From the NCBI GenBank assembly GCA_903839355.1, contig CAIMBV010000217.1, forward strand, positions 1-11,490: a DNA stretch of 11,490 nt, written 5' to 3'. Source of the stretch: an uncultured Actinomycetes bacterium (GTDB taxonomy: Bacteria > Actinomycetota > Actinomycetes > Nanopelagicales > Nanopelagicaceae). The position numbers were made by a program, and so were the translations under genes. This document shows positions 2,621 to 9,517 of the stretch, piece after piece. The notes beneath the pieces are model-generated. The model was not told the origin of the DNA, did no database searches, and worked only from the letters and a program-made list of their open reading frames with translations. Numbering within the stretch: position 1 is the first letter of the stretch; every line of letters starts with the position of its first letter.

Positions 2621-2630
2621 CATTGTCATG

Positions 2631-2645
2631 TGCTATTGTCAATAC
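2631..2645 (+). promoter_or_regulatory. Extended -10 box giving a leaderless start at 2646
   Basis: TGC followed by TATTGT (2634-2639) is an extended -10 element, and exactly 6 nt separate it from the ATG at 2646. No Shine-Dalgarno sequence precedes either candidate ATG (2628 or 2646). A leaderless transcript starting at 2646 explains this best and decides the start codon. Confidence 0.45.
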
Positions 2646-4004
2646 ATGGAGAAACTCACCTTTGGCGAACGCCTTCGCCAACTCAGGGTCAAAGCCGACC
2701 TCACCCAGCCAGAGCTCGCCCAGGACATCACCAGCGTGAGCCATATATCCCTGATCGAATCCAATAAGCGCCACCCTTCGGATGAGATCGTCACCAAATT
2801 GGCGTCCCGGCTGGGGGTCCCAGTTGAGTTTCTTCGATATGGGCCTGAATCAGAGTCAAACCAGAGTCGTCGCAAGGATTACATATTCGCTGAAATCTCC
2901 TTCAAAAATGGCGACTTCGCTTTCGCCCAGACTCTTCTTGAAAAGATATTGAAAATTCCATCCCTTCCTGCCGATACCGAATTTGAGCTCCAAGTTCAAT
3001 CTCTCTACGCCCAAACGCTGGAAAAATCTGGTGATCTAGATCGGGCTGCCATTGAGACAAAGAGAGCCATTGCTTTAGCTCAGAGCGCGGGGCTTCCATT
3101 GCAGGTCATCGAAATGACTATCACTCTCTCGAAATATGCAAGAGAATCCGGCGATTTTGTAACAGCTCTAGAACTTTTAGAACAGGCAGAGAAATCTGTC
3201 CCCGCCCAACTCCAGAAAAGTGCGACATATGCGCGCTTGCTCTCGAGCAAGATCGCCATTCATTTCCTCCGTGGAGATTACATTCGCGCTTATGATATTT
3301 CGAAGGCTGCGATGGTTATCTTCGATGATCAAACAGATCCGATTGCACGAGCATCCATTTATTGGAACGCAAGCGTTGCGGCAGATGCAATCCAGGATGC
3401 CTCTCAGGCACTTCTATTGGCCCAGAGAGCAGCCGGTCTATTTTCGGAATCTGAAGACTCTCGAGAAGAAGGCAGCCTACGAGTAGCTATTGCCTGGCTT
3501 CTCACTCGCCAGACACCGCCTGATATAACAGGTGCTCAAAGGCAATTAGATCGAGCGGGTGTTCTTTTGAAGGAACATGGATCTCCGGTCGACCTTACTT
3601 ACTATCTAACAGAGTTGGCTCGAGTTGAGTGGCTTAAAGGTGATTTTGAGAAATCTCTTGAGACCATCAAGTCAGCTATCGCCAACACAGATCCAAGCAA
3701 AGATCTCTTGCAACGGGCTGATGCCTACCTCTTAGCTGCGCGCGCTGAAATTAGTTTGGGTCGTCAATCAGAATCAGAGATGAACTTGCTTGCCGCTAAA
3801 GGCAGCCTGCTAGGGATGGAACTATCTCGTCAAAATGCACTCGCATGGCGCGAACTCGGGGACATTTATTCTGGACTTGGCTACCTTGAAGATGCAATAG
3901 ATGCCTATCGGCAAGCGCTACAAGAGGCTGGCGTTGCCGCAAGTCCACTGGCCTTTTCAGATCTCAAAAGTTCACAGAAAGGAGTTACTTCTCGCCAAAA
4001 ATAG
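2646..4004 (+). CDS. XRE-family HTH transcriptional regulator with TPR sensor domain
   Basis: This is a cytosolic DNA-binding regulator of 452 aa. Residues about 5-64 form a Cro/C1-type helix-turn-helix (FGERLRQLRVKADLTQPELA, then ISLIESNKRHPS). From about residue 78 to the end the protein is a run of helical TPR-like repeats with small-residue and aromatic spacing, such as AQTLEKSGDLDRAAIETKRAI and LGDIYSGLGYLEDAIDAYRQAL. This is the build of the RRNPP peptide receptors (PlcR, NprR, Rgg), but also of many orphan actinobacterial regulators. A start at 2628 in the same frame would add MCYCQY; I prefer 2646 because an extended -10 sits 6 nt before it. The gene diverges from a small secreted-peptide gene and has a palindrome in its promoter. 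Its ligand and targets cannot be read from sequence. Confidence 0.87.
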   Translation: MEKLTFGERLRQLRVKADLTQPELAQDITSVSHISLIESNKRHPSDEIVTKLASRLGVPVEFLRYGPESESNQSRRKDYIFAEISFKNGDFAFAQTLLEKILKIPSLPADTEFELQVQSLYAQTLEKSGDLDRAAIETKRAIALAQSAGLPLQVIEMTITLSKYARESGDFVTALELLEQAEKSVPAQLQKSATYARLLSSKIAIHFLRGDYIRAYDISKAAMVIFDDQTDPIARASIYWNASVAADAIQDASQALLLAQRAAGLFSESEDSREEGSLRVAIAWLLTRQTPPDITGAQRQLDRAGVLLKEHGSPVDLTYYLTELARVEWLKGDFEKSLETIKSAIANTDPSKDLLQRADAYLLAARAEISLGRQSESEMNLLAAKGSLLGMELSRQNALAWRELGDIYSGLGYLEDAIDAYRQALQEAGVAASPLAFSDLKSSQKGVTSRQK

Positions 4005-4022
4005 TTAACCTGCCGAAAAATA

Positions 4023-4069
4023 GTCAATTGGGGCACGAAGTAATCTCCTTCTGAGTGCCCCAATTTGAC
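4023..4069. terminator. Hairpin terminator between convergent genes
   Basis: GTCAATTGGGGCAC (4023-4036) pairs with GTGCCCCAATTTGAC (4055-4069), giving about 14 base pairs with one bulged base and an 18-nt loop that can itself pair GAAG with CTTC. It lies between the stop of the regulator gene (4004) and the stop of the minus-strand CopC-CHRD gene (4080), so it can serve both directions. There is no clear U tract on either side. Confidence 0.75.
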
Positions 4070-4079
4070 TCCCAATTAG

Positions 4080-4862
4080 TTACTTCTTCAATACTCCCGC
4101 AACATCGCCATCAGGGTATTTCTTAGAATGCAACATAAATACATAATCCTTTGCATTCGCAGCGAGTGTGGCAAGTGAAACTCCATCTTCTTTTTGACAG
4201 ACCGCAGATTTGGAGTTCACACTTGCAAGTTGAAGAGGAAGAAAGATTTCATCAGAGATCGTCAGATTCTTTTGGTTAGCAGCGTGAACGTGAGCAGCGG
4301 TTATATCTTTAACGGTTGTAGTGATCTGATAACAAAATGTGTCGTTATCAAAATTAATTGTAAAGGTTCCCGAAGCGGTATCTGTCGGAGAACCAACCCC
4401 ATCGAGCACGCCTTTACCATTTGCTAGAGCGTGAAAAGTAACGCTTCCTGACGTTGGAACTTTGATGGAAGAAGTAACCTTCTTTGTGTCGCCTACATTG
4501 AAACTGAAACTTCCATTAAGTACGTGTCCATCTTGAGCCGCCACCCGAAAGATAACCTTATAAATTCCGGACATCACCATAGAGGGCTGGAGAACATTCG
4601 AAAGGATCGACCCTTTCACAATATTGTCAGGTGAAGTGATTGTCATACCCATGGGGTCAACAACCTGGACCCGATTAACCGAGGAGCTTCCTAAGGTCAA
4701 TAACGGGTTAGCAAATTTCAAGACGATCGACTCGGGCAATTGCGAAACGGTGGCTCCAGCGGTTGGGTTAGATCCGATAAGAACCGTATGAGCAGAAGCA
4801 ATGGGCGCTAACACCACCCCTAGGAGCAGTGCCAGCACAAGCGAGAATCGACCTTTCTTCAC
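4080..4862 (-). CDS. Exported copper-binding protein, CopC-CHRD fusion
   Basis: This is a secreted two-domain protein of 260 aa. Residues 1-24 are a signal peptide (MKKGRFSLVLALLL to IASA), and predicted cleavage leaves His25 at the mature N-terminus. In CopC proteins the N-terminal amine and His1 are Cu(II) ligands; the other usual ligands, Asp and His of a DGH motif, are present as Asp111 and His113 in DGHVLNGSFSF. Residues about 25-123 are the CopC domain (SNPTAGATVSQLPESIVLKF). Residues about 140-260 look like a CHRD domain, with HVHAA at 191-195 and LHSKKYPDGDVAGVL near the end; Cys177 and Cys222 could pair. It starts with GTG, whose GTGA overlaps the SCO1 stop by 4 nt, so the two are translationally coupled. 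It probably carries or scavenges Cu(II) outside the membrane. Confidence 0.88.
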   Translation of the reverse strand: MKKGRFSLVLALLLGVVLAPIASAHTVLIGSNPTAGATVSQLPESIVLKFANPLLTLGSSSVNRVQVVDPMGMTITSPDNIVKGSILSNVLQPSMVMSGIYKVIFRVAAQDGHVLNGSFSFNVGDTKKVTSSIKVPTSGSVTFHALANGKGVLDGVGSPTDTASGTFTINFDNDTFCYQITTTVKDITAAHVHAANQKNLTISDEIFLPLQLASVNSKSAVCQKEDGVSLATLAANAKDYVFMLHSKKYPDGDVAGVLKK

Positions 4863-5686
4863 ATCTTCATCTTAGGGCCAATGGGGAGCCCAAAGACCTC
4901 CTGGAGTGCGCCATACACTGCTCCGATAGTCCAATCCGGTTGTTGCGGCTTAAGGAGATTCAGACGACCTTGATCGCTGAGGAATCTTTTAAGTGTGGCT
5001 GGAAGCTCCGTTGGATTCGCCACCGCAGGATTTCCAAGGTCAATCCAACGATAATGAGAATTTGGTCCGAGCAATATCACTACATCATCATGTTGAATGT
5101 CGTAGGTAATTTTCTTCCCAGTCTGCCAATCGACACCCTCTCCATCTTCATTGGGAATCTTCTTGGTGTAAACCCCAAACCAACTCCAGAACTTGGTGAT
5201 ATCTGCAGCACTACCGGTTGCTAAGGTCCAATCAGAATTTCCGTAGAGAGCTTGATATGCCTTCAGCCGAGAGACGGTGTCCCGTCCTGGATCCACAGTA
5301 ACTTCAAGCACTTTCACTTTAGAACTATCTCCAGCTTTGTTAACCGCCAGGGCAATGTCTCGCATATTGACCGTTGTCATTGGGCAGATCATGTCGCAAC
5401 TGGTGAAGAAATCAGTCAGGACGATCTCTTTGCCGCGGAGAGATGCCAACGTAAAACTTTTTCCGTTCTGATCTTTCAATGAGATATTGGCGATGGCGTC
5501 AGGCATCGCAGCATCGAAAATTGTTCCGCCCATCATGGCGGCCGTGCCGCTAATTGGTGGAGGAGTCGGCGCTGACATATCCATTCCAGCCATTGGTTTC
5601 GGTTTGGCAGAAGGAGTTGCGGCATACGATGCCGAAAATCCGGTCATCACCAGAAAGATTGAAAGTGCGAGCGCTGTCTTTTTCAC
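4859..5686 (-). CDS. SCO1/SenC copper chaperone for cytochrome oxidase assembly
   Basis: This is an exported thioredoxin-fold protein that delivers copper to the CuA site of cytochrome c oxidase and/or controls thiol redox state there. I chose the GTG at 5686 (275 aa) over the ATG at 5728 because AGGAG lies 5 nt upstream and the product then begins directly with a signal peptide, MKKTALALSIFLVMTG. A Pro/Met-rich linker follows, with MAGMDM at 32-37 and MM at 51-52. The copper site is complete: Cys97 and Cys101 in TSCDMICPM, and His199 in YDIQHDD. The C-terminus extends to GPKMKM. It is followed, with a 4-nt overlap, by CopC-CHRD. A zinc-ribbon gene ends 45 nt upstream. Confidence 0.93.
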   Translation of the reverse strand: MKKTALALSIFLVMTGFSASYAATPSAKPKPMAGMDMSAPTPPPISGTAAMMGGTIFDAAMPDAIANISLKDQNGKSFTLASLRGKEIVLTDFFTSCDMICPMTTVNMRDIALAVNKAGDSSKVKVLEVTVDPGRDTVSRLKAYQALYGNSDWTLATGSAADITKFWSWFGVYTKKIPNEDGEGVDWQTGKKITYDIQHDDVVILLGPNSHYRWIDLGNPAVANPTELPATLKRFLSDQGRLNLLKPQQPDWTIGAVYGALQEVFGLPIGPKMKM

Positions 5687-5731
5687 GTGATCTCCTGAAC
5701 TCGAATAGTGCCTAAGTTTAGTTTTCATTTG

Positions 5732-6343
5732 CTAAATGTGCTTATCGCTACGACTGGAAAACGGGCAATTCATCTTTGGGTACTTATTGGTGCGCATATT
5801 TGGCGTCATGATAAAGATATGACCCTTGGAGCATCGCCACTTTAATCGCTTGCCGCTTCCATAGGTCACAGTTTGCGGGTCCCACTCAAAGGCTTGCAGC
5901 GCCAAATGCGGGTGGGTTGTCTGTAAATCGTTGAAACCAGGCAGGACTTTTCTATTTGAACAGTAGGGGCATCCAGATCCCGAACTCCTGTGAGAAACCT
6001 TAGCGAAAAATGTGTGACCCAATGGGCAGCACCACTCTCGAACTTCACCTGCCCCTGCGGTGATGGTGGTTGGATCCCAGCCCAGGGCTTGTGCCGCGAT
6101 CTCGGGATGGGTCGTTCCCAGATCATTTTTACCAACGACCAACACCTTTCCAGAGCACTCAGGACAATGTATGACCCTTCCGCGTGAAGTCCGCGCGTTC
6201 GGGCTGGTGATGAAGACATGTCCTTGCTCGCATCTCCAAGGCCTATCCACTCCGGAACCAGATGTGACTTTGGCTGGATCCCAACCAAAGGCTTCTTTAG
6301 CCAAGGAGGGAAAAGATTCTTCAATAGCTTGCTTTATTGCCAC
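5732..6343 (-). CDS. Triple treble-clef zinc-ribbon protein (DUF4379-like)
   Basis: This 203-aa protein is built from three repeats of the form HPxLAxQAxxWDPxTVTxGSG, WxC, GHxF, CPxC. That resembles the 'probable zinc-ribbon' family (PF14311, DUF4379), which often occurs in several copies and is sometimes linked to nucleases or phage-type genes; its function is unknown. Zinc ligands are Cys38/His42/Cys60/Cys63 and Cys106/His110/Cys125/Cys128. The third repeat keeps Cys171, His175 and Cys193 but has Ser196 (codon TCC) where Cys is expected, and the protein ends soon after. I chose the GTG at 6343 because GGAG lies 5 nt upstream. The alternative ATG at 6388 would have its AAGG inside the arm of a 12-bp hairpin. 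There is no signal peptide or membrane segment. It is an odd member of a copper locus. Confidence 0.82.
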   Translation of the reverse strand: MAIKQAIEESFPSLAKEAFGWDPAKVTSGSGVDRPWRCEQGHVFITSPNARTSRGRVIHCPECSGKVLVVGKNDLGTTHPEIAAQALGWDPTTITAGAGEVREWCCPLGHTFFAKVSHRSSGSGCPYCSNRKVLPGFNDLQTTHPHLALQAFEWDPQTVTYGSGKRLKWRCSKGHIFIMTPNMRTNKYPKMNCPFSSRSDKHI

Positions 6344-6392
6344 TTTTACTCCAATTCTCCTGCATTCTATTTTTCTTCCGTGTTCCATCTGT

Positions 6393-6437
6393 AACCTTGA
6401 ATCGCTCTCTCAATGATCAGGAGAACGATTCAAGGTT
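6393..6437 (-). terminator. Perfect 12-bp inverted repeat after the ferric-reductase-like gene
   Basis: AACCTTGAATCG (6393-6404) and its exact complement CGATTCAAGGTT (6426-6437) enclose a 21-nt loop, whose CTCT and AGAG edges can add a few pairs. It begins 12 nt beyond the stop at 6449 and lies before the zinc-ribbon gene, so termination or attenuation is the likeliest role. There is no U tract, as is often the case in actinobacterial terminators. Confidence 0.55.
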
Positions 6438-6448
6438 CTCTGGATTAA

Positions 6449-7321
6449 TTAAATGTTTGCTATGAAGTCAGAGTTGCCGGTGAAGACAATCAGAAGGGCT
6501 GCCAGGATTCCCGCATAGGCCACTCCGACCAAGGCCTGCGAAGTCAGGTACTTTCCACCAGATTTCTTCTCCGAATTCTTCTTTGCCAATTCGTTGAAAC
6601 GCTTGGCAAAGAGCCACAAAAGTGGAATCTGCAGTAACCATGTTGTAGGTCTGATCCACTTGTAATAGCTCATATCCAATCCAAGAATGAGTGAGTGCCA
6701 AACCGATCCGATATAAAAAATCAGAATGAATCGGTGGAGGTACTTCCACGTAGAGACTCCGATTTTGCGGCGGAGATAGAAGGTAGGACCCAGCAATAAC
6801 AAAGTGTAAAAGGCGATAATTCCTACGTCATAACCCCACACCGCAGCTGGCCAACCGGTCTTTGCATTTGCCCAACCGTTGAACCAAAAAACGGTCCGCC
6901 ACGAATCACCCATGGCGTCAAAGACTGTGGCCACCGCATGAACGATCACTAGACCGAGGGTCAGTAAAGCGATGTGACGGTGCAGTTGATCAATTGATCT
7001 ATATCCCAGCTTTAACCAACCAACAGCTCTTCGGGATTGCTGCAAACCCAATAAAACCGCCAAATATGAGGTGACGAGTCCAACTAGACCCGAGGCTTGC
7101 AAAATTGGGAACGACCAGAAGGTTCTTGTTTTGTTCATATGCATGCTAGGCATGCCAAGCGCTGCGGCGCTCTTATCTTGAGATTGAAGATGATAAATAA
7201 AGAAATAGAGGGCCAGGAATGCCACTACTCCTGTGATAGTTACCAGCCAGGCAGATTTTCTGGAAGAAAATTGCACGGTGGAATTTTTGTCATCCTGAGA
7301 GGACTCCACATTGATAGACAC
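6449..7321 (-). CDS. Ferric-reductase-type haem membrane protein
   Basis: This 290-aa polytopic membrane protein has about seven hydrophobic segments and matches the ferric reductase-like transmembrane domain. Two histidine pairs fit two stacked haems: His114/His128 in QLHRHIALLTLGLVIVHA and His196/His209 in YLHRFILIFYIGSVWHS. The 14- and 13-residue distances equal those of the haem ligands in gp91phox. There is no FAD or NAD(P)H domain, so electrons must come from a partner or from quinol. The first external loop holds MPSMHM (57-62), a possible copper site. The start is GTG with AGGAG 5 nt upstream. It follows the 46-aa membrane peptide by 33 nt. I infer a role in reducing extracytoplasmic Cu(II) or Fe(III); a quinone-linked oxidoreductase is an alternative. 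Confidence 0.85.
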   Translation of the reverse strand: MSINVESSQDDKNSTVQFSSRKSAWLVTITGVVAFLALYFFIYHLQSQDKSAAALGMPSMHMNKTRTFWSFPILQASGLVGLVTSYLAVLLGLQQSRRAVGWLKLGYRSIDQLHRHIALLTLGLVIVHAVATVFDAMGDSWRTVFWFNGWANAKTGWPAAVWGYDVGIIAFYTLLLLGPTFYLRRKIGVSTWKYLHRFILIFYIGSVWHSLILGLDMSYYKWIRPTTWLLQIPLLWLFAKRFNELAKKNSEKKSGGKYLTSQALVGVAYAGILAALLIVFTGNSDFIANI

Positions 7322-7354
7322 ATTTACTCCTAATATAAAAATTATGGATATTCA

Positions 7355-7495
7355 TTAGTGCGATCTCCGATAAAGCCACCAGGCGAAAACCGCGATAAGA
7401 GCGATACCGGTAGCTATCAACATTGGAAGATTGCTTTGCAGGAAACCCTGACTCATGTTCATTCCAGCCATATCGGACTGTAGGAAATGATTCAT
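7355..7495 (-). CDS. 46-aa single-pass membrane peptide with Met-rich N-terminus
   Basis: This small gene has strong support: AAGGAG lies 6 nt before the ATG at 7495, and the product has a clear membrane design. Residues 1-23 are polar with a Met motif, MAGMNMS at 9-15. Residues 24-41 are a hydrophobic segment (LPMLIATGIALIAVFAWW), and LYRRSH closes it. By the positive-inside rule the RR end is cytosolic and the Met motif faces outward. The motif nearly repeats MAGMDMS of the SCO1 protein in the same cluster. The ferric-reductase-like gene starts 33 nt downstream, so they are probably cotranscribed. I do not recognise a family. Inferred roles are a Cu(I)-binding accessory subunit or a partner of the reductase. 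Confidence 0.7.
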   Translation of the reverse strand: MNHFLQSDMAGMNMSQGFLQSNLPMLIATGIALIAVFAWWLYRRSH

Positions 7496-7529
7496 TTAGC
7501 GCTCCTTGTATAAGTCAAACCCACTTGAT

Positions 7530-7544
7530 TCGGCAGGTTGCCGA
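7530..7544. other. Short hairpin upstream of the 46-aa peptide gene
   Basis: TCGGCA, a 3-nt loop GGT, and TGCCGA form a perfect 6-bp stem. It lies in the 79-nt gap between the stop of the polytopic membrane protein (7575) and the AAGGAG of the small peptide (7502-7507). It could be a weak terminator or an mRNA-processing element; there is no U tract. Confidence 0.3.
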
Positions 7545-7574
7545 GAAGTTAGGTTTGCAGGTTCTTAACTAGTA

Positions 7575-8153
7575 CTAAATTTTTACTAGACGAACCGGCG
7601 GAGCACTCAACCGAGAAGTTGCCTCGGTCAGAAAACTTTGAAGCTGTGTGATGAAGGTATTGAGTTCGATCTTGATCTGATTGAACTGGGTAGAAACCAA
7701 TTCAGTTCTTGGAATGAAGAATGGAACAAAGATGGTTGCTAGGAAGTATCCTGCAAAATTCCAGAAGGGCTCGCTCTTTCGAATGAAGAGGTAAGAAGCA
7801 ATTCCAGCAATTGTGTGTGAGGCGATCATCGTGGTCGGGCTCATCGTGGAACCCATGTTCATGGACAATATGCGCGAGGTGCCACCACAAACCGGGACAA
7901 GCATTCTCATTTGTCCGCTACCCAACAGGAAGTGGGCTCCCGCTTGAGCAACGATCACTACTAAGGCCAAGCCTGGACCTTCAAGCTCTCTGACGCTGAG
8001 GATGGAGAGGATGGCTATCAGACCCACCGAGATTCCCAAGAATGGGACTAGTGGGATGAAGGTCCCACAACCAACTGAGTGAGCGATTACAGCCCCGAGG
8101 AGCAAGACTCCGCTATTGAGCAGTACTCGCGGGTTGAGCACTCTGGTGGACAC
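7575..8153 (-). CDS. Polytopic membrane protein with Met/His-rich loop, copper-locus associated
   Basis: This 192-aa integral membrane protein has about five hydrophobic segments and a polar, possibly amphipathic C-terminus. It carries AQAGAHFLL (69-77) followed by a loop with SMNM (97-100), Met104, Met109 and SHTIAG (112-117). From memory this resembles short actinobacterial membrane proteins (AQxxxH, a Met/His-rich loop, then SH and a further segment) found near CopC/YcnI genes; I cannot name a family. Cys29 and Cys89 could form an extracytoplasmic disulfide. I chose the GTG at 8153 over the GTG at 8192 because TATTCT lies 6 nt upstream with TTACCC 17 nt further, a promoter for a leaderless mRNA, and neither start has a ribosome-binding site. 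It is the first gene of the minus-strand copper-type cluster. A metal-binding or transport role is inferred. Confidence 0.72.
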   Translation of the reverse strand: MSTRVLNPRVLLNSGVLLLGAVIAHSVGCGTFIPLVPFLGISVGLIAILSILSVRELEGPGLALVVIVAQAGAHFLLGSGQMRMLVPVCGGTSRILSMNMGSTMSPTTMIASHTIAGIASYLFIRKSEPFWNFAGYFLATIFVPFFIPRTELVSTQFNQIKIELNTFITQLQSFLTEATSRLSAPPVRLVKI

Positions 8154-8188: not shown

Positions 8189-8217
8189 CCACTTAAGAAA
8201 AGTTTCTCAAGATTACG

Positions 8218-8290
8218 TGCCCCGAGTGGGGGTCGAACCCACACTTGGAGGATTTTAAGTCCTCTGCCTCTGCCATTGGGCTATCGGGGC
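8218..8290 (-). tRNA. tRNA-Leu (UAA anticodon), type I fold
   Basis: A 73-nt cloverleaf can be folded completely. The acceptor is GCCCCGA with TCGGGGC, and the discriminator is A at 8218. The D arm has a 3-bp stem (GCC/GGC). The anticodon stem is GAGGA/TCCTC with loop CTTAAAA, giving anticodon TAA. The variable loop is CAAGT, and the T arm is GTGGG-TTCGACC-CCCAC. The anticodon reads UUA (Leu), and the A discriminator fits leucyl-tRNA synthetase, but the 5-nt variable loop is not the long arm expected of tRNA-Leu. CCA is not encoded. The membrane-protein gene follows on the same strand. Confidence 0.85.
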
Positions 8291-8326: not shown

Positions 8327-8416
8327 GAGTCTACTAGCCCGCTGTGACGCCATAAAACGCAGCCACTGTTCACGCAAAATAGTCAATTTCATACTGCTCC
8401 GACTCACTTCAACGGG

Positions 8417-9025: not shown

Positions 9026-9517
9026 TCAAAACTTTCGTTGGAACGGTAGTGGTTTACGCATCCTAATAATTAGTAGTAACGGGATGAGAACGTAAGGCCC
9101 GTTATATGCCAAGAAGACCCAAGGGTGCGGAGTTCTCCATTGAGGTTCACCAAAGAATTCAACACCAAAGACAACGACCCCCGTAATTCCTGAGATCAAC
9201 GTTCCATAAATAACTGCGAAGAGCTGAATCCACTCTTTGCCCTTAAGAATGGAATAAACCAGAACCAAGTAAAAAGGTGCATAAACAAAGGCAGAGAGTC
9301 CCGTTACAAATCTCATCCAAATAGGTGGGTGCAAGAAAAGAGGATCATTTACGCTGGCATAGGAATAATTAAGCCTCGCCAGAATATTTCCGCTATGTGG
9401 GGATTCAACGACACCAAGAGTGGGGATGGCATCGCTGATGATGCAGGTTATAAACGCCCACGAGAAGAAAACCAGAAATAGATAGTCGAATTTTCTCTGT
9501 TTCAGAGGGAGAGTCAC
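9026..9517 (-). CDS. EXPERA/TMEM97-like four-helix membrane protein
   Basis: This 163-aa protein has four predicted membrane helices and resembles the EXPERA superfamily (emopamil-binding protein, TMEM97/sigma-2 receptor, DUF2781). Motifs include IISDA near residue 29, NDPLFLHPPIWMR (57-69), GVEFFG (118-123) and AYNGPYVLIPLLLIIRM (137-153). The order and spacing match human TMEM97, whose Asp29 and Asp56 correspond to Asp29 and Asp58 here. The family handles sterols or related hydrophobic ligands in eukaryotes; the bacterial substrate is unknown. The start is GTG, with no ribosome-binding site. TAATTT (9524-9529, minus strand) lies 6 nt upstream, suggesting a leaderless mRNA. An in-frame TAA at 9527-9529 rules out a longer N-terminus. 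The antiporter gene ends 31 nt upstream. Confidence 0.72.
   Translation of the reverse strand: MTLPLKQRKFDYLFLVFFSWAFITCIISDAIPTLGVVESPHSGNILARLNYSYASVNDPLFLHPPIWMRFVTGLSAFVYAPFYLVLVYSILKGKEWIQLFAVIYGTLISGITGVVVFGVEFFGEPQWRTPHPWVFLAYNGPYVLIPLLLIIRMRKPLPFQRKF

Follow-up and report, generated by a model that had tools for sequence, protein, structure and literature searches.

Organization of the locus

The window examined here is a stretch of 11,490 nucleotides from contig CAIMBV010000217.1 (C217) of GCA_903839355.1, a draft genome of an uncultured, presumably small-genome member of the Nanopelagicaceae (1.19 Mb in 287 contigs, 69% complete, 1.3% contamination). Its minus strand reads, in order, tRNA-Leu, a polytopic protein (TM205), a 46-residue peptide, a membrane protein with a ferric reductase domain (FRE), a DUF4379 protein, SCO and CopC-CHRD (Table 1). 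An earlier note had described five of these genes as one cluster and suggested that they form a copper relay, with methionine motifs in TM205, the peptide, FRE and the SCO linker. The genes and motifs are as described, and all lie on the same strand. However, the DUF4379 gene, a sixth on this strand between FRE and SCO, had been passed over, and the hairpin following FRE means that a single operon is not shown and that the parts may form two transcripts. For this reason, and because SCO and CopC-CHRD have a history of their own, the data support a composite copper locus rather than a single ancestral relay of five genes. The FRE of this locus is probably a two-haem membrane protein with an outer methionine cluster.

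Table 1. Features of the copper locus and its surroundings (positions within the window)
Feature	Position	Strand	Basis and remarks
tRNA-Leu (TAA)	8217..8290	-	ARAGORN, Rfam; variable site adjoining the copper cluster
TM205, polytopic protein	7575..8153	-	Open reading frame open from 8192; GTG 8153 agrees with homologues
TM205 codons 95-126 (Met/Cys/His segment)	7815..7910	-	15-row alignment
46-residue peptide	7355..7495	-	N-terminus rich in Met; a single membrane helix predicted
MAGMNM of the 46-residue peptide (residues 9-14)	7454..7471	-	Motif read in translation
FRE, ferric-reductase-domain membrane protein with four putative haem histidines	6449..7321	-	Pfam, alignments, model, folds
MPSMHM of FRE, residues 57-62 (M57, M60, M62), outer loop 1	7136..7153	-	
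Hairpin after FRE stop	6393..6437	-	-27.4 kcal/mol, z -6.8; inverted repeat I4; no T-run
DUF4379 treble-clef protein	5732..6343	-	Pfam 1.3e-24; start 6343 likelier than 6388
SCO, signal-like N-terminus, CxxxC, His in YDIQHDD	4859..5686	-	Pfam; solved Sco relatives
MAGMDM of SCO linker (residues 46-51 from ATG 5728)	5576..5593	-	
CopC-CHRD	4080..4862	-	Pfam; 4-nt overlap with SCO
Hairpin after CopC-CHRD stop	4022..4070	-	-26.9 kcal/mol, z -6.2; no T-run

FRE and its outer methionine cluster

FRE matches the Pfam family Ferric_reduct (E 3.6e-9, 37.2 bits against a cut-off of 28). The protein has 290 amino acids and, unlike NOX and the long FRE proteins, no C-terminal dehydrogenase domain in the Pfam scan. 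Four histidines (His114, His128, His196 and His209), putative haem ligands in helices 3 and 5, are present in all 97 rows of the alignment. Their spacing is 14 (114/128) and 13 (196/209), as for 101/115 and 209/222 in NOX2 numbering (PMC3591440). The ferric reductase domain superfamily comprises STEAP, FRE, NOX, YedZ and short bacterial forms, and in the available part of its published account short proteins that lack the dehydrogenase domain yet have all four histidines are rare (PMC3591440). The STEAP/YedZ subgroup is defined there by arginine in place of the first haem histidine, a feature that FRE does not share, His114 being invariant. Nor does FRE appear to be of the CrpH type, as the Pfam scan at E <= 1 shows no PepSY_TM domain. 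The predicted model appears to agree with the fold of solved members of the domain, and FRE resembles metal reductases known from animals and from yeast.

The pattern M..M.M is found in 110 of the 120 FRE homologues listed (225 were found), which is more than chance would give. Two of the ten exceptions are truncated and three carry M...M.M. Four to five methionine columns are kept in the alignment, on the outer face only; residue 65 is methionine in most relatives and threonine in the window's protein. The outward cluster that the earlier note had seen on a reductase-like protein is therefore family-wide and, judging by alignments and predicted fold, sits on a two-haem protein. It goes unmentioned in the superfamily account, where the word 'methionine' is absent from the main text (PMC3591440).

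A control at the class level, in which the FRE profile matched 52 of 394 genomes including the window's own, revealed a sister subfamily. Twenty-five of these matches have E-values between 8e-47 and 9e-38 (FRE itself, 7e-144), and the others are weaker than 1e-12. When the 25 are aligned to FRE, His114 is conserved in 24 and the other three histidines in all. Met57 is likewise universal (25/25), whereas Met60 falls in a gap (0/25) and Met62, Met65 and Met137 are found in 5, 1 and none of the sequences, respectively. As the methionine columns are mostly lost where the haem histidines are kept, the cluster marks FRE's own subfamily and not the fold. In the sister loci (L009-L033) the one remaining methionine lies within MPxLADADxYW; a search for a DUF5134-like neighbour at these loci gave nothing usable.

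On balance FRE is interpreted as an outward copper reductase or a Cu(I)-handling electron carrier, with copper as its presumed substrate and with a presumed donor and partners. Its electrons might instead go to oxygen, iron or, as with MsrQ/YedZ, a partner protein, with the methionines being structural or binding another metal. Such an acceptor would suit a fold common to iron, copper and oxygen reductases, and most distant FRE loci show no copper gene nearby. However, the confinement of the conserved methionines to the outer face, their loss in the sister subfamily and the copper-related neighbours in the window all argue for copper, and another acceptor is considered quite unlikely.

FRE is sparsely distributed. 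At the order level (296 genomes) a full match occurs only in the window's own genome, with one other weak match (28 bits), and the possibility that FRE is a common gene of the order was rejected. This also speaks against the gene set as one co-occurring system, as the earlier note would have it. A single-sequence search gave no match in 150 other genomes of the family, and at the phylum level (396 genomes) the four genomes that pass E 1e-30 are the window's own and three with a sister-type protein. Among named bacteria, FRE occurs in Alicyclobacillus fastidiosus, Streptomyces humicola, Terrilactibacillus and Heyndrickxia acidicola. A first scan of genome contigs returned no FRE locus and a second returned three (A. 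fastidiosus, S. humicola and Terrilactibacillus). Phage origin and plasmid spread were both rejected: no FRE relative was confirmed in viral contigs, and there are only three plasmid matches, at 28-31% identity. The Terrilactibacillus homologue (L006:8016-8781) is divided into two open reading frames, reflecting either a broken gene or a sequencing error. In A. fastidiosus a 203-residue membrane protein with MNMGH repeats (L004:7365-7976) directly precedes the FRE homologue.

TM205 and the 46-residue peptide

TM205, which represents an unnamed family of membrane proteins, has no match over a cut-off to the curated families of Pfam or NCBIfam. It contains MRM at 95-97 and SMNMGSTM at 110-117 in the 205-residue numbering (97-104 when counted from the start at 8153). 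A search yielded 15 proteins, the window's own included. The motif singled out in the earlier note, M.M at 111/113, is kept in just 11 of the 15 rows, but M95, M97, C102, M122 and H126 are present in all 15, and M117 in 14. The predicted model is poor (predicted local distance difference test score 55). Several relatives (e.g. L044:5861-6367) end in [AG]PP.

The TM205 profile detects 14 loci in 12 of 121 genomes of the family, each of them no more than 2.1 kb from a match to SCO or CopC; if the window's own locus is set aside, 13 of 13 lie within 1.1 kb. This association supports a role in copper handling independently of the motifs, and the note's attribution of the cluster to copper, already favoured by the presence of SCO and CopC-CHRD, is strengthened by it. 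In homologues P0124, P0126, P0129 and P0130 the first letters agree with a read-through of tRNA-Leu, imperfectly so in P0123, and the position beside this tRNA is thus shared. Four pairs of FRE and TM205 homologues from metagenome DNA have the same size of longest contig (47494, 28494, 6008 and 2980), from which it may be inferred that the two genes share contigs.

The 46-residue peptide also lacks any Pfam or NCBIfam match over the cut-off. Its reading frame has a Shine-Dalgarno match of 6/7, and it represents its own 90% cluster, with seven member sequences on 15 contigs; the search found this cluster only and no diverged homologue. The DNA encoding its MAGMNM matches that of the SCO linker motif at 89%.

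SCO and CopC-CHRD

SCO matches Pfam SCO1-SenC (E 2.4e-23, 83 bits, cut-off 22.8). Its CxxxC aligns with that of solved Sco proteins, and the histidine ligand in YDIQHDD was read by eye. The GTG at 5686 has a better ribosome site than the ATG at 5728. CopC-CHRD matches CopC (E 2e-15, 58 bits, cut-off 23.3) and CHRD (E 1.3e-8), and its putative copper site consists of the N-terminal histidine after a putative signal together with DxH, both histidines being aligned with CopC 6nfq.

In two related genomes, G101 (same genus) and G108, SCO is 66.8% and 65.1% identical, respectively, to that of the window. The order in G101 is HtpX-like, SCO, a CopC-CHRD-PCuAC fusion (65% identity over the CopC-CHRD part), a second SCO and then a histidine-kinase-like gene on the opposite strand (HtpX and kinase names assigned by eye). 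In G108 it is SCO, a similar fusion (51%), a transmembrane protein and a second SCO. The PCuAC part of these three-part fusions (L081:5853-7061 and L082:1586-2818) is recognized by its 44-45% identity to PCuAC as encoded in the window's genome. There, contig C4 carries an HtpX-like gene, PCuAC alone (PF04314, 33.8 bits, cut-off 29.4), a TM205 paralogue and a second SCO. Taken together, the G101 and G108 loci and the remainder on C4 suggest from gene order that SCO and CopC-CHRD moved to the tRNA-Leu site from a SCO-CopC-PCuAC-TM-SCO2 locus like that of the relatives. Many other genomes of the family have SCO-CopC pairs unaccompanied by FRE. This separate placement, with PCuAC and a second SCO in the relatives and with PCuAC on another contig here, is again at odds with co-occurrence of the whole set. 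The SCO linker motif fares no better: MAGMNM is present in G101 and MPGMPGM in G108, several other genomes have none, and just 5 of 16 relatives have MxM or MxxM in the linker.

The window's genome also encodes a COX2 with a CuA motif. Methionine sites prefer Cu(I), and the FRE module could thus conceivably act in the reverse sense, in copper tolerance, with Cu(I) oxidized at the methionine site and electrons passed into the quinone pool; such genes often travel in islands, and this locus lies at a variable tRNA site. However, SCO and a CuA-type COX2 point to supply, and the Pfam scan of nine window proteins detects no multicopper oxidase or efflux gene, which makes tolerance very doubtful.

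The tRNA-Leu site

The tRNA-Leu stretch is 100% and 98.7% identical in two genomes of the same genus (G171 and G045), but each has different cargo past it: an MFS-like (major facilitator superfamily) gene in one and a sugar ABC (ATP-binding cassette) operon in the other, both named by eye. KefB, Rieske and tRNA-Leu are common to the window and G171, and also to G045, whose contig is cut inside KefB. An EXPERA-domain gene between Rieske and KefB in the window (9026-9517) is missing there in G171 (L045) and G045 (L046). Direct repeats of 16 nt (4014-4029 and 8373-8388, 15/16 identical) flank the locus and tRNA-Leu, but as the first of these shares sequence with the hairpin following CopC, an attachment site was rejected. 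Duplication of the tRNA 3' end as a mark of integration was likewise discarded, as the window contains no second copy, and so was an odd base composition, the window's genes having 44-51% G+C.

Proposed function

The favoured reading, held at slightly below even confidence, is a composite copper locus at a variable tRNA-Leu site, in which a TM205/46-residue peptide/FRE module adjoins the SCO/CopC-CHRD pair and FRE reduces Cu(II) outside. FRE would pass electrons over the membrane via two b haems, the inner bound by His114/His196 and the outer by His128/His209, with quinol or a cytosolic donor as the source. At the outer methionine site (M57, M60, M62 and M137) Cu(II) would be reduced and kept as Cu(I). 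Cu(I) would then be taken over or held by the Met/Cys/His segment of TM205 and the Met-rich peptide, with SCO as the presumed loader of the CuA site in cytochrome oxidase.

Several observations weigh against this scheme. Foldseek gives no match to the FRE model at E <= 0.001 (best 0.067), the TM-scores of the top reductase rows, by query, do not exceed 0.46, and STEAP rows tie with NOX rows, such that the fold gives no preference for metal over oxygen. Neither SCO nor CopC profiles match within the 16.5-16.8 kb around the three distant FRE loci (about 8 kb to either side), which also undercuts co-occurrence of the set. Genome-wide, S. humicola has three SCO matches and the other two genomes none, and in Alicyclobacillus cydAB, encoding a copper-free oxidase, follows FRE by ~450 nt. 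A screen for small Met-rich reading frames that recovers the window's own peptide finds none like it in 23 fetched loci. The strong hairpin splits the FRE half from the SCO-CopC half, and the draft genome may contain a binning or assembly fault. The scheme also presupposes haem binding, copper as ligand, the electron direction, the donor, each hand-over and joint regulation.

Alternatively, the TM205/46-residue peptide/FRE module may simply stand beside a relocated SCO-CopC pair in a tRNA-Leu island, the two not forming one pathway. This arrangement would be consistent with the hairpin, with the location of SCO-CopC elsewhere in G101 and G108, with the different cargo past the same tRNA in G171 and G045, and with the lack of SCO or CopC near all three distant FRE loci. 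The consistent association of the TM205 family with SCO/CopC (14/14 loci) and the four further cases of FRE and TM205 homologues apparently lying on common contigs argue otherwise, and unrelated neighbours are considered somewhat unlikely.

Relation to known copper systems

The Streptomyces sco operon contains Sco, PCuAC-like and CopC/CopD-like proteins (PMC3603459, from the available part). The window resembles it in placing SCO beside a CopC protein, with copper delivery to cytochrome oxidase as the shared theme, and its genome also has PCuAC, which two relatives carry as a fusion with CopC-CHRD. Unlike that operon, it does not have SCO, PCuAC and CopC together: CHRD takes the place of CopD, PCuAC lies on contig C4, and FRE, the 46-residue peptide and TM205 are added.

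Two bacterial systems offer functional parallels. CrpH, a PepSY_TM haem protein that supports haem-copper oxidases, has been put forward speculatively as a copper reductase of the periplasm (PMC13038864). In both cases the proposal is that a haem protein reduces copper on the outside for the benefit of oxidases, but FRE belongs to a different Pfam family, and CrpH is Gram-negative and has no methionine cluster described in the available part of that paper. CcoG, the cupric reductase of cbb3 oxidase assembly, is said to be absent from Firmicutes (PMC7558416, PMC13344008, each as available in part). It shares with the proposal for FRE a dedicated copper reduction for oxidase assembly; however, CcoG is an iron-sulphur protein and FRE a haem protein of the ferric reductase domain type.

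No description of a haem protein with an FRE-type methionine cluster was found in the literature searched, subscription literature being mostly beyond reach. RclA is reportedly another bacterial Cu(II) reductase. A wider proposal, more tentative than that for the locus itself, is that FRE represents a methionine-site subfamily of short four-histidine proteins, found in Actinobacteria, Firmicutes and many metagenome sequences, that act as outward haem cupric reductases dedicated to copper delivery where CcoG is lacking, here together with a small Met-rich peptide of the membrane and a membrane protein tied to copper. With its position beside SCO and CopC and its family-wide outer methionine cluster, FRE is a concrete copper reductase candidate, open to testing in purified form. 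The tie between the TM205 family and copper loci is a separate gain for annotation.

Other features of the window

Promoter-like matches (4, against a shuffle mean of 5.0) and terminator-like matches (6, against 4.4) do not rise above shuffled sequence, and both strong hairpins fall outside the terminator-like list because no T-run follows either. A weaker fold lies between TM205 and the 46-residue peptide (z -2.4). The DUF4379 protein contains three repeats, and no link to copper was seen for it. A gene for a regulator with helix-turn-helix and tetratricopeptide repeat parts (HTH-TPR, 2628-4004) converges on the copper locus.

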